From positions 1 to 64,000 of the forward strand of contig JIBA01000016.1 of assembly GCA_000620545.1 (NCBI GenBank): 64,000 bases of DNA, given 5' to 3'. A program made the position numbers and the translations under genes. Origin of the DNA: Intrasporangiaceae bacterium URHB0013 (lineage in GTDB: Bacteria > Actinomycetota > Actinomycetes > Actinomycetales > Dermatophilaceae). Below the pieces are notes generated by a model, which worked only from the letters and a program-made list of their open reading frames with translations, did not search any database and had not been told where the DNA came from. This document shows positions 24,568 to 48,587 of the stretch, one piece after another (position 1 is the first letter of the stretch; each line of letters starts with the position of its first letter).

Positions 24568-24698
24568 GTCCCCCGACGGCGCGGCCCCGCTGAGTGCGCC
24601 GACCGCGCTCCACCGCGTGCACCGGGGCGCGACAGTGGAAATGGTCACACTGGGCGTCTACCGGGCGGTAGCCGTCGGACCTCGGGAACCCTCGGGGA

Positions 24699-24704
24699 TA
24701 GGGT
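24699..24704 (+). promoter_or_regulatory. -10 box TAGGGT of the second sdh operon
   Basis: TAGGGT ends seven bases before GTG 24712; no Shine-Dalgarno, leaderless start predicted. Upstream 24568-24698 has no gene. Confidence 0.55.
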
Positions 24705-24711
24705 TTCGACC

Positions 24712-25434
24712 GTGGCCACCAAAACTCTCCCGGTGACGGGAACGAATCGCCCTGCATCGGCCCGCCGGAGCACCGTGTTCATGAAGATGCTCATGGCCGT
24801 CTCGGGCGCGTTGTTCGTGTTCTACGTCCTCGTGCACATGTACGGCAACCTCAAGATCTTCGCCGGCGTCGAGGCTTTCAACGAGTACGCCGAGCACCTC
24901 CGGACGCTGTTCACGCCGTTCCTGCCCGACGGTGGCTTCCTCTGGCTCTTCCGCGTCGTGCTCATCGCGGCGCTCGTGGTCCACGCCTGGGCTGCCTTCT
25001 ACCTGTGGAGCCGTGCCCGGGGCGCCCGGACGACGCGCTACGTCGCCAAGGCCGCGGCGCGCGCCACGTTGAAGAGCACGATGATGCGGTGGGGCGGCGT
25101 CGCGATCCTCCTCTTCCTCGTGTGGCACCTGCTCCAGTTCACCATCGTCAAGTTTAACGTCGGCTCGCTCCAGGCCGAAGGCAACCCGGGCCTGCTTGTC
25201 ATCAGCACCTTCCAGGTGTGGTGGGTCGTCCTGCTCTACCTGCTGGCCCTCGTGGCCCTGGGCCTGCACCTCTACCACGGCGTCTGGAGCGCGACCCAGA
25301 CGCTGGGCTGGGCCGGCAGTGCCGCCGCACGTCGGCGCGCCAAGACGCTCGGGCTGATCATCGCGCTCGTCACGAGCGTGGGGTTCGCCCTCCCGCCGCT
25401 CGCCATCCTCTTCGGACTCGTCAAGGGAATCTGA
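24712..25434 (+). CDS. sdhC: Succinate dehydrogenase cytochrome b subunit (type B, diheme)
   Basis: Single-chain membrane anchor, 240 aa, five hydrophobic helices, of the cytochrome b558 family found in Firmicutes and Actinobacteria. Candidate heme ligands are His42 (VLVHMYGN), His91 (VVHAWAAF), His139 (VWHLLQFT) and His186/His189 (LHLYHGVW), consistent with two hemes. It would link succinate oxidation to menaquinone. GTG start with TAGGGT seven bases upstream; sdhA follows after 3 nt. Confidence 0.92.
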   Translation: MATKTLPVTGTNRPASARRSTVFMKMLMAVSGALFVFYVLVHMYGNLKIFAGVEAFNEYAEHLRTLFTPFLPDGGFLWLFRVVLIAALVVHAWAAFYLWSRARGARTTRYVAKAAARATLKSTMMRWGGVAILLFLVWHLLQFTIVKFNVGSLQAEGNPGLLVISTFQVWWVVLLYLLALVALGLHLYHGVWSATQTLGWAGSAAARRRAKTLGLIIALVTSVGFALPPLAILFGLVKGI

Positions 25435-25437
25435 CCT

Positions 25438-27453: not shown

Positions 27454-27511
27454 CCTTCACCCCACCGAGCTCCGTGCTCGTTCCTCCATCCGACACTTCC
27501 CAAGGGCCCCG

Positions 27512-28255
27512 ATGAACTTCACCCTCAAGATCTGGCGCCAGGCCGGCTCGACCACCAAGGGCGAGATGGTCACCTACCCGGTCGCCGACATCTCCGAGGA
27601 CATGTCCTTCCTCGAGATGCTCGACGTGCTCAACGAGCAGCTCAACGCCCGGGGCGAGGAGCCGATCGCCTTCGACTCCGACTGCCGCGAGGGCATCTGC
27701 GGCATGTGCGGCCTCATGATCTCCGGCAAGGCCCACGGCCCCGAGGTCACGACGACGTGCCAGCTGCACATGCGCAGCTTCTCCGACGGCGACGAGATCA
27801 CCGTCGAGCCGTGGCGCGCCGACGCCTTCCCGGTCATCAAGGACCTCGTCGTCGACCGGTCGTCCCTGGACCGGATCATCCAGGCCGGTGGCTTCATCAG
27901 CGCCAACACCGGCTCGGCCCCCGAGGCCCACTCGGTGCCGGTGCCCAAGGCCAAGGCCGACCGTTCCTTCATGGCGGCCGCGTGCATCGGGTGCGGCGCC
28001 TGCGTCGCGGCGTGCCCCAACGCGTCCGGGATGCTCTTCATGGGCGCGAAGATCACCCACCTCGGCGAGCTCCCCCAGGGCCAGCCGGAGCGCGACGCCC
28101 GCGTCGTCAGCATGGTGAACCAGCACGACGACGAGGGCTTCGGTGGCTGCACGAACATCGGCGAGTGCTCCTCGGCGTGCCCCAAGGAGATCCCGCTCGA
28201 CGTCATCAACCAGCTCAACCGGGACCTGCGCGGCGCGCTGATGCGCGGCGAGTGA
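27512..28255 (+). CDS. sdhB: Succinate dehydrogenase iron-sulfur subunit (second complex)
   Basis: Electron-transfer subunit, 247 aa. [2Fe-2S] motif [16 protein letters not shown] with the fourth Cys in TTTCQLHM; C-terminal clusters in [15 protein letters not shown] and [18 protein letters not shown]. It completes the second complex and differs clearly from the first SdhB. A GC hairpin follows 33 nt after the stop. Confidence 0.94.
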
Positions 28256-36208: not shown

Positions 36209-37246
36209 GTGCCCACCGACGCCCTCGCCATCGCTCCCGTGATCCTCGCGGTCGTCCTCGTCGTCAGCGCGGTCGGCAAGCTGCGGTCACCGAGCGCGTC
36301 GGCCGACGCCTTCCGCGACCTTCGGGTCCCGGCGCCGTTGTCCGGGACATTCGCCGTCGAGGCGCTGCCGTGGGGCGAGCTGCTGCTCGCCGTCGCGCTG
36401 GTCCTCTTCGGTGGACTCGCCGGCACCCTGGCCGGCGTGGCCGCCGTTCTGCTCTTCACGGCATACCTCGTGCTCGTCGTCCGGGCGACCGGATTCGATG
36501 AGGAGGTCGACTGCGCCTGCTTCGGGGAGTTCGCTCCCGGACGCATCTCGCGCCGCACCGTCGTGCGGAACACCTGGCTGGTCGCCCTCGCACTCGTCGC
36601 TCTCGGCGTCTCGACGCAGGGGTCGTCGGTCGCCTCGCGAGTGGCGGAGGGGCAGCTGCCCTGGTGGTGGCTCCTGGGCGCGGCGGCGGCCTCCCTGACG
36701 GTCCTCCTCGTCGTCCGGCGCCCGGTCGCCGCAGACGTGCGCGACACGACGGCGCCGCTCGCCCACGAGGACGGGGACTACCTCAGGTCACGCACGCCGG
36801 CCCTTCCCGTCACGCTCGGCGACGGCAGCGAGACCGACCTGCGCCAGCTCAGCGCGGCGCGTGCGCAGCTGCTTCTCTTCGTGTCCGAGGGCTGCGGCAG
36901 CTGCGCGGACGTCATTGCTGCCACCCCGGGGTGGCGCGAGGAGCTCCCCGAGCTCGACGTCCGCCACGTCGTGGAGGTCCTGCCCGGTGTCGGCGTGCTG
37001 ACGAGATCCGACTCTCCGCAAAGCGTGCACGACCCGGCCCACCGGCTCTGGGAGAGCTTCGGTGTGCGCGGGACGCCGTCCGCGATCCTGCTGGGCGCCG
37101 ACGGCCTGCTCGCGGGTGGACCCGTCACCGGCGGCGAGCTCGTGCCCGGCTTCGTCGCCGACATCGCGGCCGAGCTGCGCGAGCACCGGCCCTCAGCAGC
37201 CTCCCTCGACGAACGGTCGCCCGTCGACCACGCACCCCGTTCATAG
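36209..37246 (+). CDS. MauE/DoxX-like membrane domain fused to thioredoxin-like domain
   Basis: 345 aa membrane redox protein. Residues 1-170 form four to five hydrophobic helices of the MauE family (PVILAVVLVVSAVGKL; VDCACFGEFAPG with paired Cys 102/104). After a short linker, residues about 195-330 form a thioredoxin-like fold with CxxC at C229-G-S-C232 (FVSEGCGSCADV) and the cis-Pro region RGTPSAILLGADG. MauE was described for disulfide-rich methylamine dehydrogenase assembly. Here the fusion could pass electrons across the membrane for thiol-disulfide exchange. It converges with a Tat-exported eight-cysteine protein, a plausible client; this link is inference. Confidence 0.8.
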   Translation: MPTDALAIAPVILAVVLVVSAVGKLRSPSASADAFRDLRVPAPLSGTFAVEALPWGELLLAVALVLFGGLAGTLAGVAAVLLFTAYLVLVVRATGFDEEVDCACFGEFAPGRISRRTVVRNTWLVALALVALGVSTQGSSVASRVAEGQLPWWWLLGAAAASLTVLLVVRRPVAADVRDTTAPLAHEDGDYLRSRTPALPVTLGDGSETDLRQLSAARAQLLLFVSEGCGSCADVIAATPGWREELPELDVRHVVEVLPGVGVLTRSDSPQSVHDPAHRLWESFGVRGTPSAILLGADGLLAGGPVTGGELVPGFVADIAAELREHRPSAASLDERSPVDHAPRS

Positions 37247-37271
37247 AGGGCGCCGGCCGGGAGACGCGAGA

Positions 37272-37301
37272 GCGGCGGCAACCGGACCCGGTTGCCGCCG
37301 C
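37272..37301. terminator. Bidirectional terminator hairpin
   Basis: GCGGCGGCAACCGG (37272-37285), two bases, CCGGTTGCCGCCGC (37288-37301): a perfect inverted repeat, with TTC on one side and a mixed sequence on the other. It sits between two convergent genes and can end both transcripts. Confidence 0.75.
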
Positions 37302-37316
37302 TTCGACCATTCCCGG

Positions 37317-37934
37317 TCAGGCTGGGAGCGGGAAGATGTTCTGCAGCTTGCAGCTGCCCTGGTTGGGCCCAGGAGCAGACGGCGTGCTGCGCAGCCCGCT
37401 GGAGATGGGGGTCGGCCCGCCCACGGGCGCGCAGACACCGCCGGCCAGGCAGTCGTAACGCTGGTAGGTCAGGGACATCTCGGCGTTCTGGCTGTTGCCC
37501 GTGGGCTCGTCGCCCGTGTAGACCATGATCTGCTGGACCGAGTTGTCCGGCGTGCAGAAGGCGTGTGCGGCCGTGGCCCCGCACGTCGTGGTGGCACACG
37601 TGCCGGAGCACGTGGGGCTGGCGCCACGGATCGACACGACGAAGGTCGTGACGGGGACTCCGTTGATCTGGACGTTGGAGATGACCGTGATGCCCGTCCC
37701 GGGCAGCGGGCCGATGGTGTTGACGGCCGTCAGCTCGAAGACGTAGCCCTTGAGCGTGTCCGTGGAGTTGCCCGGGAGCTTGCACGCCCCCCCGGTGAAC
37801 GACAGCGGCCCTGCTGATGCTGCGACCGTGGGCGCCGCCCCCGCGACCACGACTGCGGGCACCGCCCAGGCGGCACCCTTGACGACCGAGCGTCGGCTCG
37901 GAGGCGCCGGAACGGCGCCGTGACTGTGTGACAT
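37317..37934 (-). CDS. Tat-exported cysteine-rich protein of unknown function
   Basis: 205 aa. The N-terminus is a twin-arginine signal: SRRSVVKGAAWAVPAVVVAG then AAPTVAASAG, with likely cleavage near residue 42. The mature part of about 160 residues is Gly/Thr/Pro-rich, has no hydrophobic segment, and contains eight cysteines (ACKLPG, TCSGTCATTTCG, AFCTPD, YDCLAGGVCAP, SCKLQN), enough for four disulfides. I recognise no domain. It is the last gene of the minus-strand EPS operon, 77 nt after a PqqD-like gene, and converges with the MauE-thioredoxin gene. Export by Tat implies folding, possibly with modification, before transport. Confidence 0.7.
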   Translation of the reverse strand: MSHSHGAVPAPPSRRSVVKGAAWAVPAVVVAGAAPTVAASAGPLSFTGGACKLPGNSTDTLKGYVFELTAVNTIGPLPGTGITVISNVQINGVPVTTFVVSIRGASPTCSGTCATTTCGATAAHAFCTPDNSVQQIMVYTGDEPTGNSQNAEMSLTYQRYDCLAGGVCAPVGGPTPISSGLRSTPSAPGPNQGSCKLQNIFPLPA

Positions 37935-38011
37935 ACGAATCCCCCACTCGATGACTGAACCCCCAAGTTCTCCGTCAACATACCTGAGCGTGCGCTGCTC
38001 GATGCCGGAAA

Positions 38012-38386
38012 TCAGGCACCTTGGGGCGATGCACGATCATCTGCACCCGATGGCGCCCAGATTGCCCCGTTATGGCCCTGACCTGCGACGATGACGCTGT
38101 GGTGCCGCAGCTCCACGACCGCCGCCAGGACCAGGTCCGGCAGCTCACCGACGGCCGGGTCACCCAGCAGCCGCCGCAGGTCCTGCTCCAGCCTGGCCAG
38201 GGTCGTGCCGGGCCCGACCAGGCGCAGGATCTCCACCCCGAGCGGCGAGAGCCGAAGGACCTCGAAGGTGGGCGCGAGACCCACCATCACCACGGTCCCC
38301 TCGTCCGTGGAGAACTCGTCCACGACGTAGCCCCGGCGAAGCGCGACGTCGGCGTGGAGGTCGGAGTCGGGGTCGGGACTGCTCAT
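38012..38386 (-). CDS. PqqD-like (RiPP recognition element) protein
   Basis: 124 aa. Matches the winged-helix PqqD/RRE pattern: VALRRGYVVDEFSTDEGTVV strands, LSPLGVEILRLVGPGTTLAR helices and LRRLLGDPAVGELPDLVLA with a C-terminal HSVIVAG strand. Such proteins bind leader peptides and hand them to modifying enzymes. ATG overlaps the stop of the HPr-kinase-like gene (ATGA). It lies between that ATPase and the Tat-exported Cys-rich protein, so the latter may be its client; this is inference. The tail after residue 105 is polar and probably disordered. Confidence 0.68.
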   Translation of the reverse strand: MSSPDPDSDLHADVALRRGYVVDEFSTDEGTVVMVGLAPTFEVLRLSPLGVEILRLVGPGTTLARLEQDLRRLLGDPAVGELPDLVLAAVVELRHHSVIVAGQGHNGAIWAPSGADDRASPQGA

Positions 38387-39156
38387 CGCGTCCTCCCGAG
38401 CACGTCGCTCACGACCGGCTCCAGGTCAGCGGCGTCGTGGTAGCGGACCCGGCGCAGCCCGCCGACCGAGTCCAGCAGGTCGGCCAGGTGGTGCAGTGGG
38501 CGCTCGAAGAGGGAGAGCGACGACGTCTCGGGTGCGAGCAGGGCAAGCGCGTCGAGGACGTCGACCGGCTCGATGACCACGTCGGCCCCACGCGGCAGGT
38601 CGCGGCGGAGGAGGACCATCCCCGCGAGCCAGGGCCGCACCGTGGGGGCGCTGAGGCCCAGCTCCTCGGGCGCCAGCTCGTCCTTGAGCTCCGGTGTGTC
38701 CGGTCGACGCACGGAGAGCGGCTTGCAGTAGGTCGCGATGGTGAGGTCGGCCGCAACCCCTACCGTCTCGTCGGAGACGTAGCCCCGGCCGGGGCCCAGG
38801 GTCCGGACGACGGTGGTCTTTCCGGTGCCCCCGGGCGCGACCATGGCGATCGCGGCCCCACTGGACCGGTCACAGAGTGCGCCCGCGTGGAACATGGTCA
38901 GCTGCCCCGCGCGCGCCGTGATGGCCTCGCGCGTCACGAGCTGGGTGAGCTCCTGCAGGGCCGCGGCGATCTCCCGTGGCTCCGCATCGGCACGCACGGA
39001 CGGCGCGCGGACCACCACCGCGTTCTCGACGGGGGACGTCTGGCACGCCGACCAGGCGCGCTGCGCCAGTGCGCGGAGGCGGGGGTCCTCCACCTCGATC
39101 ACGAGCGAGGCACCCAGGGCCTCGACGTGCAACCTGTCATCCGCGAGCCCTGTCAT
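38383..39156 (-). CDS. HPr kinase-like ATPase
   Basis: 257 aa. It resembles the HprK-related kinases that sit beside PqqD-like proteins: LTMFHAGALCD (the HAG motif), P-loop MVAPGGTGKTT (residues 105-115) and YVSDETVGV (acidic pair). Lacks the PTS-specific regions of true HPr kinase. May phosphorylate a peptide or protein serine, as seen for lasso-peptide kinases; substrate unknown. Start ATG 39156 overlaps the upstream GT stop and its own stop overlaps the PqqD-like start, so it is the seventh of eight genes read from 45862. Confidence 0.75.
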   Translation of the reverse strand: MTGLADDRLHVEALGASLVIEVEDPRLRALAQRAWSACQTSPVENAVVVRAPSVRADAEPREIAAALQELTQLVTREAITARAGQLTMFHAGALCDRSSGAAIAMVAPGGTGKTTVVRTLGPGRGYVSDETVGVAADLTIATYCKPLSVRRPDTPELKDELAPEELGLSAPTVRPWLAGMVLLRRDLPRGADVVIEPVDVLDALALLAPETSSLSLFERPLHHLADLLDSVGGLRRVRYHDAADLEPVVSDVLGRTR

Positions 39157-40313
39157 GCGTTCGACCCGCCCTGGTCCAGTCGTCCGAGCACCTCGACGAG
39201 CTGGTCCACCCGGCGCGCCCAGTCGGCGCCGGCCGCACGCTCCGGGTCCGCCTCTGCCGCGACGGCCTCGTCGGGCCTCCCGGCCGCGCCGACGACGTCG
39301 GCGACGGCGGCGGCGAAGGTGTCGGACGCCGCGAGCGTGACGAGGTCGTCCACCACGTCGCGGAAGCCGGCCACCGGCGTGGAGACGACCGGTCGACCAG
39401 ACGCCTGGTACTCGTACAGCTTGATCGGGTCGAGGCTGTCGGTGAACGGCGTGACGACGTGGGGCACGACGAGCACGTCGGCGTGCTGAACGTAGGCGGG
39501 CACATCGGTGCTCGCGCGGGCTCCCAGCATGAGGACCCCTGCGGCCTCCAGACGCGAACGCTGCCCTGATCCGAGTGCATCTGGTCCGACGAGCACGAGG
39601 TGACCGCTTCCGTGGAGCGCGCGGGCCGTGGCCGCGCAGAGCTCGACGTCGAGCCGGTCGCCGTGGAGGGTGCCGACGTAGACGGCAACGGGACCTGTCG
39701 GCAGGTCGGAGGGACGGTCGTACGCCACGCCATAGGCAGCGGTGTCGACGCCGTTGGGCACGAGGGTCACGTCGCGGAGAGCTCCCTTGCTCGCCGCGAG
39801 CGCCGGCGAGCAGACGATCACCTCGTCGCACCGGGCGAGCAGGATCTGCTCCTGCGCGATGATGCGCTCCGTCGCGGCGGTCGAGCGCTCGGCGAGCGTC
39901 CAGTCGTCGGTCACGTCGTAGAGCGAACGCCAGTGCGTCGCCTCGACCAGGAGCGAGCCGGTCGGGTCGTTGACCCAGAGGACCGGGTCGCCCATGTCGA
40001 GCGACCTGGCCGTCCGGAGCACCTGTCGGGCCCAGCGCTCGTCCATCCGGCGGTCGACCCGGCGAGGAAGCCACTTGGTGGGCTCGAGCAGCCACAAGGC
40101 CCCGGGCGCGATGCCGTCGAGCTCGGGGCCGGCACGCAGTCCCCTGCCGAGTCGTGGTTGGCCGGCGCCGAGAGCCGCGTGGAGCGGGTCGGTGGCCGGC
40201 TCCACGAAGAGCACGCGCAGATCGGCACGGCGGCGCAGCAGGCCTGCGACGAGGTGCTGGTTGCGCCGCCACACGCCGTCCCAGGCCTCGAGCGAGGTCA
40301 CGACGATGTCCAT
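39153..40313 (-). CDS. Glycosyltransferase (GT-B, TuaH-like)
   Basis: 386 aa. N-terminal VVTSLEAWDGVWRRNQHLVA (the W-x-x-V-x-R-R-x-Q motif of this subgroup) and YDVTDDWTLAERS; C-terminal VAVYVGTLHGDRLDVELCAA, LDPIKLYEYQASGRPVVSTP. Such enzymes extend teichuronic-acid or EPS repeat units. Start overlaps the next upstream GT by 16 nt. Ends in an Ala/Asp-rich tail. Fifth gene of the operon starting at 45862. Confidence 0.83.
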   Translation of the reverse strand: MDIVVTSLEAWDGVWRRNQHLVAGLLRRRADLRVLFVEPATDPLHAALGAGQPRLGRGLRAGPELDGIAPGALWLLEPTKWLPRRVDRRMDERWARQVLRTARSLDMGDPVLWVNDPTGSLLVEATHWRSLYDVTDDWTLAERSTAATERIIAQEQILLARCDEVIVCSPALAASKGALRDVTLVPNGVDTAAYGVAYDRPSDLPTGPVAVYVGTLHGDRLDVELCAATARALHGSGHLVLVGPDALGSGQRSRLEAAGVLMLGARASTDVPAYVQHADVLVVPHVVTPFTDSLDPIKLYEYQASGRPVVSTPVAGFRDVVDDLVTLAASDTFAAAVADVVGAAGRPDEAVAAEADPERAAGADWARRVDQLVEVLGRLDQGGSNA

Positions 40314-41332
40314 CGGACCACCCCTCGATAGACCGCTGCGGTCTCCCGCGCCTGGTGCGCGGCAGTGAAGAGCTCGCGCTGGGTGGACTGGAGAGCGGCG
40401 GCATACGCGTCGCGACGCTTAGGGTCAGCCGCGAGCGCGGCGAGGAGCTCGCCGGCGCTGGTGGGGTCCCCGGCCGGGTGCAGGGCTGCCCCGGGGACTG
40501 CACCGACGGTCTCGAGGTGGCCGCCGGCGCCGACTGCGAGGACGGGGAGCGCGGCGGCCATCGCCTCGACGACCGTGAGCCCGAGGCCTTCGATGCGACA
40601 GGGCGCGAGCAGCAGTCCGGCATGTTCCATGAGCTCGGGAACGTCGCTGCGGTGGCCGAGGAAGCGCGTCGTGTCGGCGATGCCCAGCTGCCGCGCGAGC
40701 GCGGTGAGGACCGGGAGCTCCGCGCCGTCACCCGCGAGCTCGAGGCTCCACCCCTGCTCGGCGATGCCCGACGCCGCAAAGGCTCGGAGGGCGAGGTCGG
40801 TCTCCTTCTCCCGCTCGAGACGCTGGGCGACGAGAACCACGCGGCGCCGGTCCGCGGCGGTCCGCGTGGACGTCGTCGACTCGACCCCGGGATGGATGAC
40901 GACACTCGTGCCGTCGACGGCGTCGGCGACGTAGTGGCTGATCGCTATCTGGGCATCGATGCGACGCGCAGCGGCGGCCGCGGTGACGGTCGAGATCGGG
41001 TTGCTGCCACGGTCCCGCGCGAAGTGACGCGTCACGACAAGACGTGTCTGAACTCCGACCAGGCCTGCGGCGCAGGCGATCTCTGCAGCGGTCATGTGCG
41101 CGTGGACGACGTCGGCATGACGGCCCCATCGACGCACGGCCATCAGCACGTCGGTCACCGTGACGGCAGGCAGGGTGCGCACACTCGTGCCCGCGGCCGC
41201 CGCCATCCGCGTCGGATCTCCGCCGACGACGAGGACCTCGTCGCCGGCGGCGAGCTGTGCCCGAGCCAGTCGGGCGACGTGGCTCTCGACGCCGGCGAAC
41301 GCGTCCGAGCGCACGGCGTGGAGGATCCTCAC
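40298..41332 (-). CDS. Glycosyltransferase family 4 protein
   Basis: 344 aa GT-B protein. N-terminal ILHAVRSDAFAGVESHVARL with VVHAHMTAAEIACA; C-terminal VLVAQRLEREKETDLALRAF, FLGHRSDVPELMEHAGLLLA and CRIEGLGLTVVEAMAAALPV carrying the E-x7-E motif. GTG start overlaps the upstream gene stop (GTGA); its 3' end overlaps the next GT by 16 nt. Sugar unknown. Confidence 0.85.
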   Translation of the reverse strand: MRILHAVRSDAFAGVESHVARLARAQLAAGDEVLVVGGDPTRMAAAAGTSVRTLPAVTVTDVLMAVRRWGRHADVVHAHMTAAEIACAAGLVGVQTRLVVTRHFARDRGSNPISTVTAAAAARRIDAQIAISHYVADAVDGTSVVIHPGVESTTSTRTAADRRRVVLVAQRLEREKETDLALRAFAASGIAEQGWSLELAGDGAELPVLTALARQLGIADTTRFLGHRSDVPELMEHAGLLLAPCRIEGLGLTVVEAMAAALPVLAVGAGGHLETVGAVPGAALHPAGDPTSAGELLAALAADPKRRDAYAAALQSTQRELFTAAHQARETAAVYRGVVRWTSS

Positions 41333-42486
41333 GAGACATCCCCGCGCACGCCCGCCGACGGCCCGGGTTCCGCGCGCAGCCCCGTCAGCACGTCGAGGTA
41401 GCGGCGCGCCACCGCCGCCCACGAGTGCCGCTCGGCGCTCTCGCGAGCTGCCGCCCGGGCGGCAACCGGGTCGAGTGCGAAGACCCTCGAGAGACCTGCG
41501 GCGAGGTCCGCCGCCGTCGCCTCGACGACCGCACCGTTGACGCCGTCGGTGACCACGTCGGGCACGCATCCGGTGGGCGTCGCGACGACGGGGACGCCGC
41601 ACGCCAGCGCCTCGAGGACGACGAGACCGTAGGACTCGTAGGCGCTCGGCATCGCCAGGGCGTCGGCAGCGTGGAGCCACGGTCGCGGGTCCGGGTGGGC
41701 ACCGGCGAACCGGAGTCGGCGGCCCAGCGAGACGGCGGCCTGGCCGGCGGACTCGGAGGCGACCATGTCGGGGGTGCCACCGATCACCACCAGACGGACC
41801 TCCGGCCCCAGCCGCGCCACGGCTTGGACGAGCAGGGGCAGCCCCTTGCGCCCGAACTCGTTGCCGATGAAGAGCACCATGCGGTCGTCGGTGCCGAGCC
41901 CGAGCTCGCCACGGGCAGCGTCGCGTTCGGTCGCTGTCGGCGGTCGGAAGCTCTCGATGTCGACCCCGTTCCCGATGACCACGGTCGGGATCGCGAGGCG
42001 GGGGTAGGACTCGCGCAGCAGCCGCTCCTCGTCCGTGACGAGGTTGACGACGAGTCGGTGGCTGCCGGTCGAGGAGTAGCGGAACCGGTCACGCGTGGTC
42101 GTGAAGAGGTGGAGGGGGTTGCGTGCCATCCGGACCCGGTAGTGGCCCCGTGCCCGCATGGCCGCCTGGACGATCCCGTGGTTGACGTAGACGTCGCCGG
42201 CGACCGCGTCGTTGTGGCAGATCGAGAGCAGCTCGGGGTGTCGGCGCAGATGGCTCCGGGCCCGGCGCGTCCCCACCGTCGAGAACCACATGACCCGGCC
42301 GATCAGAGCCAGTCGTCCGCCGAGGCCGCCACCCGGTGTGGGCAGCCACGACCCACCGGCCTCGGCCAGCGTGAAGCGCCGGACGTCGACGCCGAGACGC
42401 TGCCACTCCCGCTCGAGGTGGAAGGCCACCGCGCCCACCCCCGTGCCCGGACCGATCTCAGGGGTGATCTGGACGATCGCCGTCAT
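41329..42486 (-). CDS. Glycosyltransferase family 4 protein
   Basis: 385 aa GT-B protein. N-terminal IVQITPEIGPGTGVGAVAFH; middle VYVNHGIVQAAMRARG; C-terminal MVLFIGNEFGRKGLPLLVQA, WLHAADALAMPSAYESYGLV with VLEALACGVPVVATP (E-x7-E region). ATG 42486 overlaps the polymerase gene stop. Third gene of the EPS operon. Confidence 0.86.
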   Translation of the reverse strand: MTAIVQITPEIGPGTGVGAVAFHLEREWQRLGVDVRRFTLAEAGGSWLPTPGGGLGGRLALIGRVMWFSTVGTRRARSHLRRHPELLSICHNDAVAGDVYVNHGIVQAAMRARGHYRVRMARNPLHLFTTTRDRFRYSSTGSHRLVVNLVTDEERLLRESYPRLAIPTVVIGNGVDIESFRPPTATERDAARGELGLGTDDRMVLFIGNEFGRKGLPLLVQAVARLGPEVRLVVIGGTPDMVASESAGQAAVSLGRRLRFAGAHPDPRPWLHAADALAMPSAYESYGLVVLEALACGVPVVATPTGCVPDVVTDGVNGAVVEATAADLAAGLSRVFALDPVAARAAARESAERHSWAAVARRYLDVLTGLRAEPGPSAGVRGDVS

Positions 42487-43841
42487 CGCGCCGCCACCGG
42501 CGCCTCTGTCGTCGACGGCACGGGCGCCGGCGGCGCTGCCCGGCGTTCCGCGTGCCAGCTGGCGCCGAGGCACAGACCGAGCACGACAAAGGGAACCGAC
42601 CCCTGGACCGCAGCCCAGAAGAGGTCGAACTGGCCCTGGACCAGACGCGAGACGAGCACGGCGACGGCGAGCGAGCCGTAGACCGGGTCGAGCCGCCAGG
42701 CGACGCGCAGGGCCACGACCATGAGCAGGACGAAGGCCGCGAGCCCGACGATGCCGGCGGACGTCAGCACCTCCACCTCGGCGTTGGGCGGCTGGAACTG
42801 GAACGGGAACCGGTCGGTGTACCACCACCGCAGCCCGACACCGAACCACGGGTCGGACGACCACACCGTCATCGAGTCCTGGAACCACGTCAGCCGCTGG
42901 AACACGGAGTTGAACTGGTTGTCGGACTGCACCTGGTCCTGCACGAGGTTGGTCACGAAGAGCACGAGCGGAACGACGAGGAGCAGCACGAGCTTGGAGC
43001 GCCGCCGCTCGGTGTCGGACCGGAGGACGAGGACGAAGATGGCAGCGGCGAGACCCACGAGCGCCTGTCGCGACTGCGTGAAGAGGACCGCGACGAGCAT
43101 GAGGGACATGAGGATGACGGACCACCGTCGGTTGATGCCCGCCCAGACGGGTCGGACGTAGACCATGACGGCCCCGAGCGCACACACCGTGCCGGCGAAG
43201 TTCTTGTGCATCGCGTACGGGAAGCTGGGGTAGACCGGGGCGAGGCTGCCCTGAGCAAGGTGGAGCAGACCCTCCACGACGGTGACGACGGCCAGCAGCG
43301 CGATGGTGCCCACGAGCAGGCGCACTCCGGCGCGCCCGTGCCCGTTCGCCCCGACCGCCCAGCCGACGACGAGCGAGCCCGCGACCATCATCCCGGCGTG
43401 CGCCCACTCGACGGCATTGGCGGCATACGGGTTGTTGAGGACGGTGACGAGCGTGGCGAACTGGTACACGACCGAGGCCCAGAGCACCGCACGCAGGCCC
43501 GGAGAGAACGGTCGCTTGGCCAGGAGGAGCGCCGGGACGACCGCTGCCGCGAGGGCGAAGTCGGACAGGGACAGGTCGATGCCGCCGCTGCCGACACGCA
43601 CGACGACGAGCAGGAGCGGGAGGACTGCGAGCGGGATGAGCCCGGGCTGGACCGCGGTGATGCCCATGGCAAGCACCGCAAGGGAGATGATGACGGCGGC
43701 CTCGGGCATCGTGACGGCGAGGCGGCCGACGACGGCGACCAGCATGACGCCGCCGAGCACGAGCCCCACCCGGGCGAGCAGGTCGCCCAGACGGTGACCC
43801 CCTAGTCGTTCCGGGAGGATGCCGGTCACGAGGCCTCCCAT
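42483..43841 (-). CDS. Wzy/O-antigen-ligase-like polysaccharide polymerase
   Basis: 452 aa integral membrane protein with about twelve hydrophobic segments and a large periplasmic-side loop of about 70 residues between VLFVTNLVQDQVQSDNQFNS and GIVGLAAFVLLMVVA. The loop contains WSSDPWFGVGLRWWYTDRFP and PPNAEVEVLTSAGIVG, the Wzy_C/PF04932 pattern, and TQSRQALVGLAAA precedes it. It would polymerise lipid-linked repeat units outside the membrane. ATG overlaps the upstream fused GT by 16 nt and its stop overlaps the next GT. Confidence 0.85.
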   Translation of the reverse strand: MGGLVTGILPERLGGHRLGDLLARVGLVLGGVMLVAVVGRLAVTMPEAAVIISLAVLAMGITAVQPGLIPLAVLPLLLVVVRVGSGGIDLSLSDFALAAAVVPALLLAKRPFSPGLRAVLWASVVYQFATLVTVLNNPYAANAVEWAHAGMMVAGSLVVGWAVGANGHGRAGVRLLVGTIALLAVVTVVEGLLHLAQGSLAPVYPSFPYAMHKNFAGTVCALGAVMVYVRPVWAGINRRWSVILMSLMLVAVLFTQSRQALVGLAAAIFVLVLRSDTERRRSKLVLLLVVPLVLFVTNLVQDQVQSDNQFNSVFQRLTWFQDSMTVWSSDPWFGVGLRWWYTDRFPFQFQPPNAEVEVLTSAGIVGLAAFVLLMVVALRVAWRLDPVYGSLAVAVLVSRLVQGQFDLFWAAVQGSVPFVVLGLCLGASWHAERRAAPPAPVPSTTEAPVAAR

Positions 43842-45862
43842 CCAGCCGCCGAGAACGCGACCGACGACGGGGCCTCGAGTGGCCCCGCTTCGTCGCTCTG
43901 GGGTCGCACGGAGTCAGCGGGGCGGACCTCCGACCTCAGGGGGCCGGAGAGGTAGAGGCGCAGACGCGAGCGGGCAGCAAGGGCGGGTTCGCCGCGGAAC
44001 ACCACGCCACGGAGGGCCGAACCGGCGACCTGCCCGGCGCGGCCCACCTGCCATCCCACGGTCCCGAAGTGCTTGCGGAGGTAGAGCTCCTGCGCGGCGT
44101 GGAAGTGTCCCTCGCGCCGTGTCGGGTCGGTGCTCGTCGCAGCTCCCACGTGGGTGGCCCGCGCCGCGGGCACGAGCGCGTGTCGCCAGCCGAGCAGGCT
44201 GGCGCGGTGGGCCCAGTCGGTCTCCTCGGCGTAGAGGAAGAAGCGTCCGTCGTCGAAGGGACCGACGTGGTCGATGGCCTCGCGACGCAGCAGCAGCACC
44301 GAACCGATGACGTAGCGGTTGCGTCTCAGGCGTCCCAGGCCCACGGCCTCGGCCCACGTCGCGAGGGGCGACGGGAAGGGCCACTCGACGCGGGACGGCG
44401 TGCCGGTGGCATCGACCTGGGACGGGCCGACGCTCGCGAGGTCCGGCTCCGCCAGGGCCGCCCGGAGGGCCTCCACGTCGCCCGGCTGCACCACCGCGTC
44501 AGGGTTGACGAGCAGGATGTCGGCACGTGGGTCGACCCGACGGAGCGCCTCGTTGACGCCGGCAGCGAAGCCCCCGTTGCGGCCCGGGTCGACGTAGCGG
44601 GCCCCGGCGGCCTCCACCACGGCGCGCACCGCGGGTGAGCTGGAGTTGTCGACGACCGTGACCGACAGCCCACCGAGCGGAGCCAGCGCCTCGGCGAGCA
44701 GGTCGGGCTGGCCGTACGCGACGACGACGACCTCCAGTGGCCTGTCCGCCGCGTCAGGTCCGGTCGCCCACTGCTTCGTGGCGGCGCGGTACATCACGTC
44801 GTGCTCGGCCGCGACGCGGTCCCACGAGGTCGCAGCCGCGCGGGCCAGCCCGGCCGCTCGGAGCCGGCGGGCAACGTCGCCGTCGCGCACCACCTCGCCG
44901 ATCGCCTTGGCGAGCTCGGCGTCGTTGCCCTCGGCGACGATGAGTGCCGCCTCGCCGACCACCTCGGGCAGGGCCCCGCTGTCGCTGACGACGACCGGTG
45001 TGCCGCAGGCCATGGCCTCGAGGACGACCCGGCCGAACTGCTCCACCCATGACGTCGTCGTCAGGGACGGCACGGCCAGCACGTCGAGCGAGCGGTAGAA
45101 GTCCGGCAGGTCCTCGGGCGCCAGGGCTCCGAGGAACTCGACCCGGTCGGCGATGCCCAGCGAACGTGCGAGGGACACCAGCTCGTGGCGCTGGGGGCCG
45201 TCGCCGGCAAGGCGGACGCGCACCGCGGGCTCCAGCGCCGCCGCGTGGAGCAGCACGTCGGCACCCTTGGCCGGGTCGAGGCGCCCGGCGAACCCGACGA
45301 CGGGCACCTCACCGGGGGTGGCGGCATACGCGGCCGGCGTGAAGACCGTGAGGTCGGTGCCCAGGTCGATGGTGCGGGCGCGTCCCGGGAAGCCCTTGCG
45401 CTCGGCGATGCGTCCGGCGGCGGCGTTGCAGACGTTGACACCGCCTGCGTGGCGCAGCGCCGCCCGCTCCAACCAGCGGAAGGGGACGGGATGACGCTTG
45501 TCGATGTTCTGGGCGGAGTAGAGCAGGTAGGGAGCGCGCTGCCGGCGCAGCCACCGGAGCAGGAGCACCTCGGCCGTCGCGAGGGCGAAGGGCTCCTCGT
45601 GGATGTCGATGACGTCGAGGGGACGGCCGAGGGCCCGCCACAGCGGACGCGGGTCGTAGAGGAAGAGGGCAGGGTGGCGGCCGACGGTGCGGGCGGGCAC
45701 CACCTGCTCGTCGGGGCGCGGGCTCAGGGCGACTGGACGCCCACCCTCGGACCAGGAGGCAGCCGAGACGAGGTCGACGCGGTGGCCCAGGCGGCGCAGC
45801 GCCCGCTCCCTCTCACGCCACGCGTCGACGACGGCGCTGTGGGACACGCGCAGTGCCCACAT
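43826..45862 (-). CDS. Bifunctional glycosyltransferase, GT4 domain fused to GT2 domain
   Basis: 678 aa cytoplasmic fusion. Residues about 1-365 are a GT-B (GT4) enzyme: VIDIHEEPFALATAEVLLLR, VVGFAGRLDPAKGADVLLHA, SLTTTSWVEQFGRVVLEAMA and GTPVVVSDSGALPEV. Residues about 375-640 are a GT-A (GT2, rhamnosyltransferase-like) enzyme: LEVVVVAYGQPDLLAEAL, VVDNSSSPAVRAVVEAAGAR, NGGFAAGVNEALR, DILLVNPDAVVQPGDVEAL (DxD-type) and GPFDDGRFFLYAEETDWAHR. Two consecutive sugars may be added by one protein. First gene of the eight-gene minus-strand operon; divergent from wzc. Confidence 0.85.
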   Translation of the reverse strand: MWALRVSHSAVVDAWRERERALRRLGHRVDLVSAASWSEGGRPVALSPRPDEQVVPARTVGRHPALFLYDPRPLWRALGRPLDVIDIHEEPFALATAEVLLLRWLRRQRAPYLLYSAQNIDKRHPVPFRWLERAALRHAGGVNVCNAAAGRIAERKGFPGRARTIDLGTDLTVFTPAAYAATPGEVPVVGFAGRLDPAKGADVLLHAAALEPAVRVRLAGDGPQRHELVSLARSLGIADRVEFLGALAPEDLPDFYRSLDVLAVPSLTTTSWVEQFGRVVLEAMACGTPVVVSDSGALPEVVGEAALIVAEGNDAELAKAIGEVVRDGDVARRLRAAGLARAAATSWDRVAAEHDVMYRAATKQWATGPDAADRPLEVVVVAYGQPDLLAEALAPLGGLSVTVVDNSSSPAVRAVVEAAGARYVDPGRNGGFAAGVNEALRRVDPRADILLVNPDAVVQPGDVEALRAALAEPDLASVGPSQVDATGTPSRVEWPFPSPLATWAEAVGLGRLRRNRYVIGSVLLLRREAIDHVGPFDDGRFFLYAEETDWAHRASLLGWRHALVPAARATHVGAATSTDPTRREGHFHAAQELYLRKHFGTVGWQVGRAGQVAGSALRGVVFRGEPALAARSRLRLYLSGPLRSEVRPADSVRPQSDEAGPLEAPSSVAFSAAGWEAS

Positions 45863-45949
45863 GACCCATTCACCCCTCTCCCCGTACCGGTCCGCGGATG
45901 TCTCGGACTCGGCACAACCCCTTGGATGATATGGGAGGATGCCCGCACG

Positions 45950-45955
45950 TACTGT
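45950..45955 (+). promoter_or_regulatory. Putative -10 box TACTGT of wzc
   Basis: TACTGT lies 23 nt before the GTG start; a GGGGGG tract follows as ribosome site. No good -35 box. The 116-nt gap must also hold the promoter of the divergent operon. Confidence 0.35.
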
Positions 45956-45978
45956 CGAGTTGGGGCCAGGGGGGCAAA

Positions 45979-47385
45979 GTGACGTTCCGGGAGTTCCTGG
46001 GCGTTCTGGGGGGACGGTGGCGGATCGTCGCGGTGAGCCTGCTCGCCGTGGTCGCCGCGACGGCGGTCCAGACGATGCTGACCCCTGCGGTCTACACGTC
46101 CACGGCCAAGATCTTCCTGTCGGCGACGCAGCCTCCCGGGGCGGGCACCAGCCAGGTCGCGACGTATGCCGTCAGCGCCGATGACCTCGCGCGGTACCTC
46201 GACGTGCTCAACGCACCGTCGGTCATCGAGCCCCTGCGGGAGCGGCTCGGGCTCGCGCCCGGCACGCCCCTCTCGGTGTCCGGTGAGGTGTCGCAGACAT
46301 CCAACATCATGACGATCACCGCCACCGGCGGCGACCCGGTGCTGCTCGCCCGCATCGCCAACGAGGCGGGGCCGGTCCTTGCAGAGGTCGCGACGAGGAA
46401 GTTCTCCCCGCTGCTCGCCGCGAACGGCCAGTCGGTCGAGGCGACGCCGATCGCGCCGGCGACCGTGCCCACCGAGCCGGTCTCGCCGAACGCCAAGCGC
46501 AACCTCATGATCGGTGGGCTGCTGGGTCTCGCCCTGGGTGTCGGCCTAGCCCTCCTGCGGCACACCCTCGACACGAAGGTGCGCACCGAGGACGACATCA
46601 AGGCCCTCTCCAACCGCCCGATCCTCGGCGACATCCCGATGGTGAAGTCGGTCAAGAACGGCCTGCTCTCGCTCGAGACCGACCCACACGGGCGGCACGC
46701 AGAGTCCATCCGGCGCCTGCGCACCAACATCCTCTTCGTCGACGTCACGACGGCCGGCCACTCGTTCGTCGTGACCTCCTCGGTCCCGGGCGAGGGCAAG
46801 ACGACGACGACGATCAACCTCGCGCTCGCGATGGCCCACGCCGGCTCGAAGGTGCTGCTCATCGATGGAGACCTGCGCAACCCCTCGGTCGCCAGCACGA
46901 TGGGCCTCGACGGCTCCTTCGGCCTCACGACCCTCCTGCTCGGCCAGGCGGACATCGAGGACGTCGTCCAGCGCTGGCGCGAGACGACGCTCCACGTGCT
47001 CCCCGCCGGGCCCGTGCCGCCCAACCCCAGCGAGCTGCTCGGCTCGGAGCCGATGGAGGTGCTCTTCGGCAAGCTCTCGCACGACTACGACTTCATCCTC
47101 GTCGACAGCCCGCCGGTCGTGCCTGTCATCGACGCCGTGCTCATCAACAAGCTGACGCACGGCCTCATCATGGTCGTCGGCGCCGAGCGCACGAAGAAGC
47201 GCGACCTCGCCAGTGCCGTCCAGTCGCTCGAGACCGTGGATGCCCCCGTGGCCGGTTTCGCGCTCAACATGGTGTCGGCCGGTTCGTCGACGGCTCACCG
47301 CTACGGCTACTACGGCGTCAACCGTGACGTCCCGGCCAAGCCCAACCGTCGCAAGGAGCGCGCGCAGGCCACCCCGGGCTCCTGA
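45979..47385 (+). CDS. Polysaccharide chain-length regulator / tyrosine autokinase (Wzc-like)
   Basis: 468 aa. Wzz domain (residues 1-195) with two membrane helices (about 16-32 and 176-193) around an extracellular part; then a BY-kinase: Walker A SSVPGEGKTTTT (267-278), Walker A' VLLIDGDLRNPS (292-303), Walker B FILVDSPPV (372-380) and a short C-terminal Tyr cluster RYGYYG (441-446). Actinobacterial type with both parts in one chain. Controls polymer length and export, and is expected to be dephosphorylated by the Wzb-like phosphatase at 62063. GTG 45979 is used because GGGGGG precedes it by four bases and the protein then starts with MTFREFLGVLGGRW. Confidence 0.9.
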   Translation: MTFREFLGVLGGRWRIVAVSLLAVVAATAVQTMLTPAVYTSTAKIFLSATQPPGAGTSQVATYAVSADDLARYLDVLNAPSVIEPLRERLGLAPGTPLSVSGEVSQTSNIMTITATGGDPVLLARIANEAGPVLAEVATRKFSPLLAANGQSVEATPIAPATVPTEPVSPNAKRNLMIGGLLGLALGVGLALLRHTLDTKVRTEDDIKALSNRPILGDIPMVKSVKNGLLSLETDPHGRHAESIRRLRTNILFVDVTTAGHSFVVTSSVPGEGKTTTTINLALAMAHAGSKVLLIDGDLRNPSVASTMGLDGSFGLTTLLLGQADIEDVVQRWRETTLHVLPAGPVPPNPSELLGSEPMEVLFGKLSHDYDFILVDSPPVVPVIDAVLINKLTHGLIMVVGAERTKKRDLASAVQSLETVDAPVAGFALNMVSAGSSTAHRYGYYGVNRDVPAKPNRRKERAQATPGS

Positions 47386-47394
47386 GGCTCGACC

Positions 47395-47688
47395 TCAGTC
47401 CTCCGGGCCCGGCTCGAGGGCTGCAGCCACGAGGAGCCCCCGCGCCCCGAGCTCGGCGACGAAGGCCTTGACGTCGTCCTCGATGGCGTCCTCGGGCTGC
47501 TCGAAGAGCTCGGCGACGCGAGCGACCCAGCCGGTGGCCGGGGCCGACGTCGCCTCGCCCCAGATGAGGGCAGCGACACCCTCGAGGACGACGAGCGGCC
47601 CGCCGGGCAGGCGCGCGACGTAGACCGACCGTCCGTCGTCACTGCGGGTGACGCCGGCGTCGGGACCGGGCCGGTAGGCCGCCGTCAC
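47395..47688 (-). CDS. PqqD-like (RRE) protein, second copy
   Basis: 97 aa. PqqD pattern: VTRSDDGRSVYVARLPGGPL, VVLEGVAALIWGEAT, then helices VARVAELFEQPEDAIEDDVK and AFVAELGARGLLV. Distinct from the copy at 38012. GTG start overlaps the nucleotidyltransferase stop (GTGA), so the two are coupled. Convergent with wzc, 9 nt apart. Likely binds a peptide or works as a partner of the nucleotidyltransferase; function inferred only. Confidence 0.65.
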   Translation of the reverse strand: MTAAYRPGPDAGVTRSDDGRSVYVARLPGGPLVVLEGVAALIWGEATSAPATGWVARVAELFEQPEDAIEDDVKAFVAELGARGLLVAAALEPGPED

Positions 47689-48587
47689 GGGTCTCCCCGA
47701 TGGATGCCACGGGCGCGACGAGCAACCTGCTCGCGAACGCCACGCACCGGCCGGCCGAAGAACTCCGCGGCAACCTCCCGGCGGGACACGGGACGGCCCC
47801 GCACGATCGTCAGGTGCTCCACGTTGACCAGCATCGACCGTGACGCCACGGCGAGCTTCGCGCGCAGGCCCTGCGCCGCCCGGACCCGGGCGCGCCATTC
47901 GTCCACGCGCGTACCGCCCCGGGCTGCCACCCTCCACAGGTCGTACGCGGGGTCGTCCCGGTGGTCGTCCAGCGTGCCGGTGATGACGGAGAAGGCCAGG
48001 CCGGCGTCGAGGCGGTCGACCCACTCCAGGATGCGGATCCGCTGGGCGTCGTCCACCGTGGTCCACACCCACTCGACGTCGTTGGCCGCCTTCGGGTCGC
48101 TCCCCGCGCGGGCGGCGTGCAACAGCAGGAGGAGCGCCTGGGCGTCGCGCGAGGGCACCGTGCAGTCGACGCCACCCAGCACCGTCGTGGTGCGCTCGGC
48201 CCATAGGGCCTCGAAGGCCCGGTCTGGCGTGGGCCCGGTTCCCGGGTAGATGCGGTGGAGGTCGAGTAGGCCGAAGTCACTGTGGCGCAAGGTCGCCGAG
48301 TGCTCGAAGGAGGAGCCGTAGGCGAACGAGTTGATGAGCTCCCAGCCGTGGTGGCGCAGCTCGTCGAGCAGCATCCGCACGTGTTCCGGCCGGGCGAGCA
48401 CGTCCGCGTCGGAGAAGCCGCGCCCGGGTACCAGGGTCGGGTCCAGGGCTGCGCCCTTGATGTGCAGCAGGTCGGCACCGCACCGGTCGGCGATCCACTG
48501 GAGGCAGGCGTGCGCGAAGCCGATCCGGACCTCGAGGGGCACCGTGGCCCCCGCTCCGCGGGTCTCCGTCGCCTCGTGGGCTGCCAT
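47685..48587 (-). CDS. Nucleotidyltransferase family protein (NTP_transf_5-like)
   Basis: 300 aa. The N-terminal part has LLHIKGAALDPTLVPGRGFS and DADVLARPEHVRMLLDELR, which is the KG...R...SDxD signature of the minimal nucleotidyltransferase group (PF14907-like); a second acidic run is HSDFGLLDLHRIYPG. Members occur beside PqqD-like and HPr-kinase-like genes in RiPP and EPS loci and may modify a peptide or carry a nucleotidyl group. ATG 48587 is chosen, with GGGGG eight bases upstream; ATG 48602 would add five residues. Coupled to the downstream PqqD-like gene and divergent from the PAP2 gene. Confidence 0.72.
   Translation of the reverse strand: MAAHEATETRGAGATVPLEVRIGFAHACLQWIADRCGADLLHIKGAALDPTLVPGRGFSDADVLARPEHVRMLLDELRHHGWELINSFAYGSSFEHSATLRHSDFGLLDLHRIYPGTGPTPDRAFEALWAERTTTVLGGVDCTVPSRDAQALLLLLHAARAGSDPKAANDVEWVWTTVDDAQRIRILEWVDRLDAGLAFSVITGTLDDHRDDPAYDLWRVAARGGTRVDEWRARVRAAQGLRAKLAVASRSMLVNVEHLTIVRGRPVSRREVAAEFFGRPVRGVREQVARRARGIHRGDP

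Follow-up and report, generated by a model that had tools for sequence, protein, structure and literature searches.

The described system closest to the locus presented here is that of the linear polyphosphorylated peptides (LPP; Popov et al. 2026, Nat Commun 17:6633, PMC13381572). According to that report, LPP loci encode a discrete PqqD-like RRE, an HprK-like kinase and an NTP transferase, besides a SipW-like signal peptidase and an MsbA-like exporter, and they are called restricted to Bacillota. The precursors are 35–200 aa long with a conserved N-terminus and variable C termini, and are also found in capsule loci. LppK, the kinase, acts on Ser3 of the core, which follows a YxxP leader, and LppN, the NTP transferase, was inactive in the published heterologous system. 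In the phosphorylated lasso peptides paeninodin, pseudomycoidin and Bsf (PMC8498205, PMC10368454), an HprK homologue likewise accompanies a PqqD-like B1 protein, with a nucleotidyltransferase (NTase) in some; BsfK acts on core Ser3, and the pseudomycoidin NTase adds a hexose to the phosphate. In both lasso and LPP systems (PMC13381572; PMC8498205, PMC10368454), RRE-accompanied HprK homologues have been proven to phosphorylate peptides, the motif bound by their RREs is [Y/W]xxPx[LVIFA] (YxxPxL or WxxP in phosphorylated lasso peptides), and the phosphorylated Ser follows the Tyr by 18 residues in LPP and by 19 in Bsf. The RRE-Finder paper (PMC7470986) holds no passage on kinases or HPr.

Here, we analysed a 64,000-nucleotide stretch of Intrasporangiaceae bacterium URHB0013 (the window), which encodes an HprK-like kinase and an NTase, each with a small RRE of its own. 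Together they look like one tagging module for client proteins with predicted Tat export, and this module probably reads a modified Tat signal peptide via the motif WxxPx[VI].

Layout of the locus

Gene calls place eight minus-strand genes in one run (45862 to 37317; Table 1), with four of the six overlaps being 4 bases long (ATGA/GTGA type) and two 16 bases, and with a gap of 77 nt before the last gene, that of the Tat protein. The MauE-thioredoxin gene converges on the Tat gene, RRE2 overlaps the NTase gene by 4 bases, and 9 nt separate RRE2 from the end of wzc. The calls thereby confirm the layout described in the sequence-only reading, including the second RRE and NTase beside wzc. Additionally, a perfect inverted repeat with 14-base arms (37272–37301) separates the two convergent genes. 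The twelve genes from MauE-thioredoxin to NTase are in identical order in 5/5 intact sister loci (tblastn), and the arrangement is thus more than chance. The MauE-thioredoxin protein, which adjoins Cys-rich clients in Terrabacter, Humibacillus and genome G023, is presumed to be an extracytoplasmic thiol oxidoreductase for such clients and accessory to the module.

Table 1 Features of the locus, in coordinates of the window
Feature	Position	Strand	Remark
MauE-thioredoxin fusion (CGSC)	36209-37246	+	MauE 68.1 bits (cut-off 27)
Protein with predicted Tat export (very probable client), 205 aa, 8 Cys, signal SRRSVVKGAAWAVPAVVVAGAAPTVAAS	37317-37934	-	homologue in the same place in 5/5 intact sister loci
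Ser40 codon of client, 17 residues past Trp23	37815-37817	-	presumed phospho-acceptor
Trp23 codon of client, first residue of WxxPx[VI]	37866-37868	-	presumed RRE-docking motif
RRE1, PqqD-like, partner of HprK-like kinase	38012-38386	-	named via relatives
HprK-like kinase, 257 aa	38383-39156	-	named via relatives
EPS genes overlapping HprK-RRE1 (three GTs, Wzy-like, GT4-GT2)	39153-45862	-	outside core module
GT	39153-40313	-	EPS, host operon
GT	40298-41332	-	EPS, host operon
GT	41329-42486	-	EPS, host operon
Wzy-like polymerase	42483-43841	-	EPS, host operon; Wzy_C 48.8 bits (cut-off 31.7)
GT4-GT2	43826-45862	-	EPS, host operon
Wzz-Wzc-like chain-length regulator / tyrosine autokinase	45898-47385	+	host operon; TIGR01007 178 bits (cut-off 108)
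RRE2, PqqD-like, partner of NTase	47395-47688	-	PF05402 29.9 bits (cut-off 23.4)
NTase, 300 aa	47685-48587	-	PF14907 42.7 bits (cut-off 31.2)

Kinase, nucleotidyltransferase and their RREs

The kinase keeps its presumed catalytic residues: H90, G110, G112-K113 and D129-E130 are invariant in 12 sequences, and H, GxGK[ST] and DE are common to the HprK members, a motif like that of BsfK. In Pfam the window HprK matches nothing significantly, and its weak TIGR04352 (HPr-rel-A) score (E 0.006; 15.7 bits, where the cut-off is 200) leaves it outside that family, while 11/12 HprK members match the model at E 0.1 or better (best E 5.6e-9). The window RRE1 found no match in Pfam or NCBIfam at E 1. The names of these two proteins therefore rest on their relatives. 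Of five AF2 models made from three sequences, one reached a pLDDT of 84 against 51 or less; its best match is PEPCK (E 3e-5), with HprK/P at 7e-3, and a PEPCK/HprK-type fold is predicted from this one model. In PDB sequence searches, the best 60 of 237 matches to HprK were all P-loop proteins, and the NTase retrieved no more than two chains, both weak and from lincosamide-resistance proteins. In the NTase, D60-x-D62 and D109 are invariant (10 sequences), and PF14907 is matched by 10/10 NTases.

Each enzyme is accompanied by its RRE across genomes. An RRE lies directly downstream of HprK in 42/44 HprK matches, in one open frame with it at 24 of those 42 loci, and directly downstream of the NTase in 19/26 NTase matches. 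PF05402 is matched by 13/16 RREs, and the RRE profile retrieves PbaB1 (E 2e-6), TbiB1 (E 3e-6) and LppB (E 3e-5) from the PDB. A discrete PqqD-like RRE, an HprK-like kinase and an NTP transferase are all found here, as in the LPP family. The present system differs in having one RRE per enzyme, with RRE1 often fused to HprK, and in its occurrence in Actinobacteria.

Probable client proteins and their Tat signal

The Tat protein of the window is very probably a client of the module. It shares with the other clients the signal SRRxhhKGAAWxxPx[VI]...PxxAxS, in which the Trp and Pro of WxxPx[VI] are invariant (82-row client alignment). The traits of a Tat substrate, namely the SRRxhhK motif, a hydrophobic stretch and AxA near the end, are found among 76 representative signals, the extraction of which required RR and W; Ser precedes RR in 46 of them, Lys stands four before Trp in 35, and Ala is at +15 in 67. 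Conservation among the clients reaches through the signal to the first mature residues and no further, and the clients measure 140–484 residues from the signal onward (median 187). Searches of 82 clients against Pfam and NCBIfam gave five families each with one member per family, and the clients are thus without a shared domain; individual clients hit Ig-like, fimbrial-like or choice-of-anchor surface-protein families. The sequence-only reading had proposed the Cys-rich Tat protein as the modified client. Its eight Cys are confirmed and its role as client stands, but the common trait is the signal and not the cysteines: Cys counts range from 0 to 10 across 93 distinct client ORFs, which rules out Cys richness as the defining trait.

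A hydroxyl residue follows the motif at a nearly fixed distance. Ser/Thr is found 17 residues past the Trp in 88/93 distinct clients and at +18 or +19 in the remainder, and three clients whose hydrophobic stretch is shorter, with Pro at +10 or +11, still have Ser at +17. With a Ser-independent search pattern, Ser/Thr is at +17 in 29/32 and at +17 to +19 in 32/32. The taste of the signal peptidase might be a partial cause of this spacing; among 40 pattern matches, roughly ten were true ordinary Tat signals as judged by eye. LPP precursors have a similar Ser just past the leader cleavage site (Tyr+18, against Trp+17 here) and a like [Y/W]xxPx[V] leader motif, which in the present clients lies inside the Tat signal. 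The LPP leader consensus, YxxPxVLxHQxIxFETxxS, is not found in full, the shared part being aromatic-xxPx[VI] and the approximate Ser distance only.

Co-occurrence of module and signal

The association of the signal with the module is strong. In an order sample of 297 genomes, the NTase was found in 52, HprK in 58 and the signal in 57. NTase and signal occurred together in 52 genomes, NTase without signal in 0, signal without NTase in 5 (of 245 lacking the NTase) and neither in 240 (Fisher p about 1e-52, kinship ignored). HprK was present in all 52 NTase genomes, and four of the five genomes with signal only also lacked HprK of this type. At genus level, the 21 genera with NTase, of 95, are the same 21 that have the signal. 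Without the 10 sample genomes from which rows of the signal profile came, the figures became 42/42, with 5 exceptions and 240 with neither. In a phylum sample of 326 genomes, the signal occurred in 3, all with NTase and all also in the order sample; weak NTase matches without signal were seen in three genomes outside the order. Among these soil-dwelling bacteria, a kinase and an NTase, each with a small docking protein, are therefore almost confined to genomes with this signal, and on this ground the signal probably doubles as a tagging handle. Co-occurrence had been set beforehand as the test of the idea that RRE, HprK and NTase form a peptide- or protein-modification module, and the presence of this Tat-signal type in 52/52 NTase genomes supports that idea.

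Proposed mechanism and alternatives

In the preferred reading, a protein-tagging module, each enzyme would work with its own PqqD-like RRE (HprK with the often fused RRE1, NTase with RRE2). The RREs would bind WxxPx[VI] inside the client Tat signal, much as [Y/W]xxP leaders are recognised by the RREs of lasso and LPP systems. The kinase may phosphorylate, perhaps polyphosphorylate, the conserved Ser/Thr 17–19 residues past the Trp, at the mature N-terminus, and the NTase may add a further group to the phosphate, perhaps a sugar or a nucleotidyl/phospho-sugar unit. The folded, tagged client would then exit by Tat, the signal peptidase cutting off the leader. A wider version, to which we give a little less than even credence, holds that the bifunctional signal is both Tat signal and RiPP leader, that phospho-linked tagging near mature N-termini is genome-wide, and that the system is EPS-wired in some lineages, where it may join clients to surface glycan. 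If such tagging is borne out, LPP-type phospho-RiPP enzymes would be known from Actinobacteria as well and would act on exported proteins in addition to small peptides, and both RRE and Tat would read a single signal peptide. Moreover, the mostly uncharacterised proteins with this signal would gain a common predicted fate, and the role of the LPP NTP transferase could be tested where the set of clients is clear. No paper on a Tat signal read by an RRE was among the matches listed from open-access titles and abstract starts.

The RREs could instead be proofreading chaperones like the REMPs (e.g. DmsD), holding the signal until the client is folded, with kinase and NTase regulating release and leaving no lasting tag. 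REMPs are small proteins that bind twin-arginine signals before export, and the end of client conservation soon after the signal would suit such a role. The present RREs differ, however, in belonging to the PqqD family and in being paired with modifying enzymes. The retained presumed catalytic residues of both enzymes, the proven peptide-kinase activity of RRE-accompanied HprK homologues from lasso and LPP systems, and a conserved Ser just past the cleavage site, needless for a pure chaperone, make this explanation unlikely.

Alternatively, the clients could be conventional RiPP precursors trimmed to small secreted peptides, the cassette being an LPP cluster in Actinobacteria. The enzyme set, leader motif, Ser spacing, conserved N-terminus with a variable rest, and occurrence in capsule or EPS loci all resemble LPP, whose precursors measure 35–200 aa. 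Against this, the clients are diverse proteins, often larger than LPP precursors and than the short peptides of lasso systems, with single members in surface-protein families; their leader is a Tat signal, with 1–10 matches per genome that are often unlinked to the module. Furthermore, neither the SipW-like peptidase nor the MsbA-like exporter known from LPP loci was called in the gene calls and translations of the L047 cassette of Intrasporangium or of the Terrabacter EPS loci. Trimming to small peptides is thus improbable. A lasso peptide or other cyclised RiPP was rejected, as the gene calls of the L047 cassette include neither a lasso cyclase nor a B2 peptidase; radical SAM, lasso-cyclase and B2-peptidase families are likewise absent among the 25 of 45 Pfam families listed for the 49 window proteins.

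Relation to EPS loci

The module lies within EPS loci in Terrabacter, Humibacillus and G023, and in Kribbia the NTase-RRE2 pair alone does. Outside Terrabacter, window-like EPS genes stand within 8 kb of 23/47 module loci, ten of these by a Wzc-like match alone, and 2/8 relatives within the genus Terrabacter have neither Wzy, module nor signal. These facts would suit a device in which the polysaccharide or its regulators are the targets of kinase and NTase, the Tat protein being an unrelated passenger. However, Intrasporangium has an EPS-free cassette of client, HprK-RRE fusion, NTase and RRE2 (L047) and a homologous EPS locus without module genes (L240), and client-HprK pairs occur at L068 and L241. 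EPS is thus a frequent host of the module and not its essence, and the EPS operon, which the sequence-only reading took as the setting, is not required. An EPS-only function, weakened by these four loci, would also leave two peptide-binding RREs without a role and a phylogenetic profile that tracks the signal to be explained, and is very unlikely. The further suggestion that the Tat protein carries or caps the polysaccharide finds no direct support.

In two Terrabacter genomes (G004, G007), neither the signal nor an HprK of this type is present, and the copy of an unlinked client is decayed, while the same client is intact in all 5 module genomes having it. Both also lack the Wzy gene, and the decay could therefore reflect loss of the EPS locus.

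Genomic linkage and other HprK loci

In at least 26 of the 52 genomes, 1.5 kb or less separates a signal from HprK or NTase, where about 1 would be expected by chance; in 26 of the 52, no signal is near the module among the matches listed. Although adjacency in about half of the genomes might suggest that signal type and module merely travel on one island without a functional tie, this is hardly credible, since clients frequently lie apart from the module (the G032 kinase, NTase and all ten signals are >30 kb from each other's module genes) and presence and absence of signal and module agree within several genera (g1, g18, g33, g50, g59).

HprK without NTase and signal was found in 5/297 genomes. 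At L135, L140 and L145, a separate HprK-RRE pair adjoins a protein of 512–528 aa, and at L154 and L168 an HprK-RRE fusion lies near apparent Fpg and GAF genes (named by eye); the HprK of these five loci probably belong to other HprK systems.

Organization of the window locus

The HprK-like kinase and the PF14907 nucleotidyltransferase (NTase), each accompanied by a PqqD-like peptide-recognition domain (RRE1 and RRE2, respectively), constitute a real and recurrent module. The gene layout given by the sequence-only reading is correct: in a run of eight genes on the minus strand, neighbours share 4 or 16 bases, except that the last, encoding a Tat-signal protein with eight cysteines, follows after 77 nt, and a second unit of NTase and RRE adjoins wzc. 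In family searches, RRE2 (PF05402), the NTase (PF14907), MauE, and Wzy of the window scored above the family cut-offs. Owing to their divergence, the HprK-like protein and RRE1 of the window could not be named from the libraries searched and were named via relatives. TIGR04352, a family with a cut-off of 200 bits, was matched by 11/12 HprK relatives (best E 5.6e-9), and PF05402 by 13 of the 16 RREs.

Coordinates of module genes and of side observations
Feature	Location	Strand	Remark
Client	window 37317-37934	-	Tat-signal protein
HprK-like kinase + RRE1	window 38012-39156	-
NTase + RRE2	window 47395-48587	-
Perfect inverted repeat	window 37272-37301		arms of 14 bases; lies where the client and MauE-thioredoxin genes converge; possibly a two-way terminator
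tRNA-Leu(gag)	window 44284-44364	-	ARAGORN call inside the gene encoding GT4-GT2; probably spurious
Succinate dehydrogenase/fumarate reductase operons	window 21096-28255		apparent neighbouring pair; names by eye, SDH/Fer2 families among window matches
Strong PF14907 protein, another subtype	G004:C16:14792-15508		E 1e-37; genome without the signal
Strong PF14907 protein, another subtype	G025:C11:56787-57503		E 2e-31; genome without the signal

Client proteins and their signal

The sequence-only reading proposed the Cys-rich Tat protein as the modified client. It is very probably a client, but the feature common to clients next to modules is the signal SRRxhhKGAAWxxPx[VI]...PxxAxS, not the cysteines. 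Altogether, 96 client ORFs were gathered (93 distinct), and 76 less similar representatives were used for conservation counts. Conservation ends abruptly at a Ser 17 residues after the signal Trp (W+17; 68/76 representatives, plus three with Thr), and from W+18 onwards no residue exceeds 18/76. Ser or Thr occupies W+17 in 88 of the 93 distinct clients and +18 or +19 in the remaining five. Ser stays at +17 even in three clients whose hydrophobic stretch is shorter (Pro at +10 or +11). A Ser-independent search pattern applied to module loci placed Ser or Thr at +17 in 29/32 and at +17 to +19 in 32/32. Client arrays were also observed: at L144, L220, L221, and L224, five to seven GAAW-signal clients with 0-2 cysteines each lie in tandem next to HprK.

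Co-occurrence across genomes

Among 297 genomes of the order, the NTase was found in 52, HprK in 58, and the signal in 57. All 52 NTase genomes possess both HprK and the signal; five genomes (G046, G115, G141, G257, G320) have the signal without NTase, none has NTase without the signal, and 240 have neither. Genera with NTase and genera with the signal are identical sets of 21 among 95. With kinship ignored, Fisher's test by genome gives p = 1e-52, and identical genus sets would arise by chance with a probability of 1.6e-21. Rows of the signal profile came from 10 of the 297 genomes; without these, the counts are 42/42, five signal-only, and 240 with neither. For each genome, up to 27 (order) or 24 (phylum) candidates were scored in the signal search. 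Three of the 326 genomes sampled across the phylum carry the signal, all NTase-positive and shared with the order sample; three further genomes show weak NTase matches (E 7e-17 to 7e-14) and lack the signal.

Among the matches listed, at least 26/52 genomes have a signal no more than 1.5 kb away from HprK or NTase, with about one expected. Since up to nine of these 26 supplied profile rows, at least 17 cases among the other 42 genomes are profile-independent.

G046, G115, G141, and G257 carry the signal and lack both HprK and NTase of the module type, which may mean orphan clients, recent loss, or another enzyme. The signal is absent from five of the six HprK-only genomes, which hints at other HprK-RRE systems. 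HprK-RRE pairs or fusions away from any NTase were also seen (L135, L140, and L145; L154, L168, L138, and L070), with two recurring places, next to a 512-528 aa protein and near Fpg-like genes.

Genomic context of the module

An RRE lies directly downstream of HprK in 42/44 HprK matches (in 24 of those 42 loci as one open frame with it) and of the NTase in 19/26 NTase matches; thus, RRE1 belongs to the kinase and RRE2 to the NTase. In Intrasporangium oryzae (L047, same contig as L055), client, HprK-RRE fusion, NTase, and RRE2 form a four-gene cassette, and 0/18 genes within 8 kb match the window EPS genes. The same genome has a homologous EPS locus (L240) with trpS, xth, GTs, Wzy, GT4-GT2, Wzc, and PAP2, where HprK, both RREs, NTase, client, MauE-thioredoxin, and GTc were not found. 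Additionally, a client and an HprK-RRE fusion lie near proteasome-like genes in Humibacillus (L068) and Terrabacter tumescens (L241), and HprK-RRE-NTase-RRE lies alongside apparent rhamnose genes in Cutibacterium avidum (L071). Outside Terrabacter, 23/47 module loci have window-like EPS genes within 8 kb. A low-molecular-weight tyrosine phosphatase-like protein (name by eye) adjoins the module in L067, L071, and L137, which may merely reflect EPS context.

In Terrabacter, the order MauE-thioredoxin, client, RRE1, HprK, three GTs, Wzy, GT4-GT2, Wzc, RRE2, and NTase is retained in 5/5 intact sister loci (L031-L035); in the incomplete G002, NTase through RRE1 are present up to the contig end. Terrabacter genomes G004 and G007 lack module-type HprK and the signal. 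No PF14907 protein was found in G007, and the sole one in G004 is a different, strong protein. As both also lack the Wzy gene, loss of EPS and loss of the module are inseparable here. A second client, unlinked to the module, is intact in five module genomes (L036-L040); its neighbour is a helicase gene at L036, L038, and L039, whereas at L037 some 8 kb separate the two, and at L040 the client is elsewhere. In a sixth module genome, G006, the EPS-locus client alone was seen. In G004 and G007, the copy next to the helicase gene is decayed, and RR and Trp of its signal are gone.

Enzyme features and relation to phospho-RiPP systems

The module kinase, whose fold class comes from one good AF2 model of five, keeps H90, G110, G112-K113, and D129-E130, resembling the published H...GxGKS...DD motif. 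RREs of lasso/LPP systems lead the PDB matches of the RRE profile (PbaB1 and TbiB1, then LppB), followed by arginine methyltransferase chains (E 3e-4). In the RRE alignment, 8/8 RRE2 rows and 0/8 RRE1 rows have Asp at the position that our own alignment equates with LppB D70, which holds the Tyr of the leader. The NTase model (pLDDT 80) resembles LnuA, MenT1, and ANT(2'')-Ia, and FKRP more weakly (E 1e-2), so nucleotidyl and phospho-sugar transfer are both possible.

Linear polyphosphorylated peptide (LPP) systems combine an RRE, the HprK-like LppK, and an NTP transferase within capsule loci; their leaders are of the [Y/W]xxPx[LVIFA] type, core Ser3 is polyphosphorylated, and a SipW-like peptidase cleaves (PMC13381572). 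BsfK phosphorylates Ser3, a reaction that its RRE accelerates, and the YxxPxL motif there spans positions -17 to -12 (PMC10368454); pseudomycoidin, once phosphorylated, receives a hexose from a nucleotidyltransferase (PMC8498205). By our own count, the acceptor lies at +18 from the aromatic residue in LPP, +19 in Bsf, and, as presumed acceptor, +17 in module clients. The LPP leader consensus was not found in module clients, and neither SipW-like peptidase nor LPP exporter was called in the L047 cassette or the Terrabacter EPS loci; hence, the module is classed here as a variation on LPP-like phospho-RiPP logic, outside LPP proper.

Beyond the observed module, signal, co-occurrence, Ser spacing, and fold classes, the RREs would bind the Tat signal of clients, the kinase would phosphorylate the client Ser, and the NTase would act on the phosphorylated Ser. 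The client would leave via Tat, and the tag may have a role in EPS. Placement of MauE-thioredoxin next to Cys-rich clients suggests that disulfides form once the client has been exported, specifically in those lineages.
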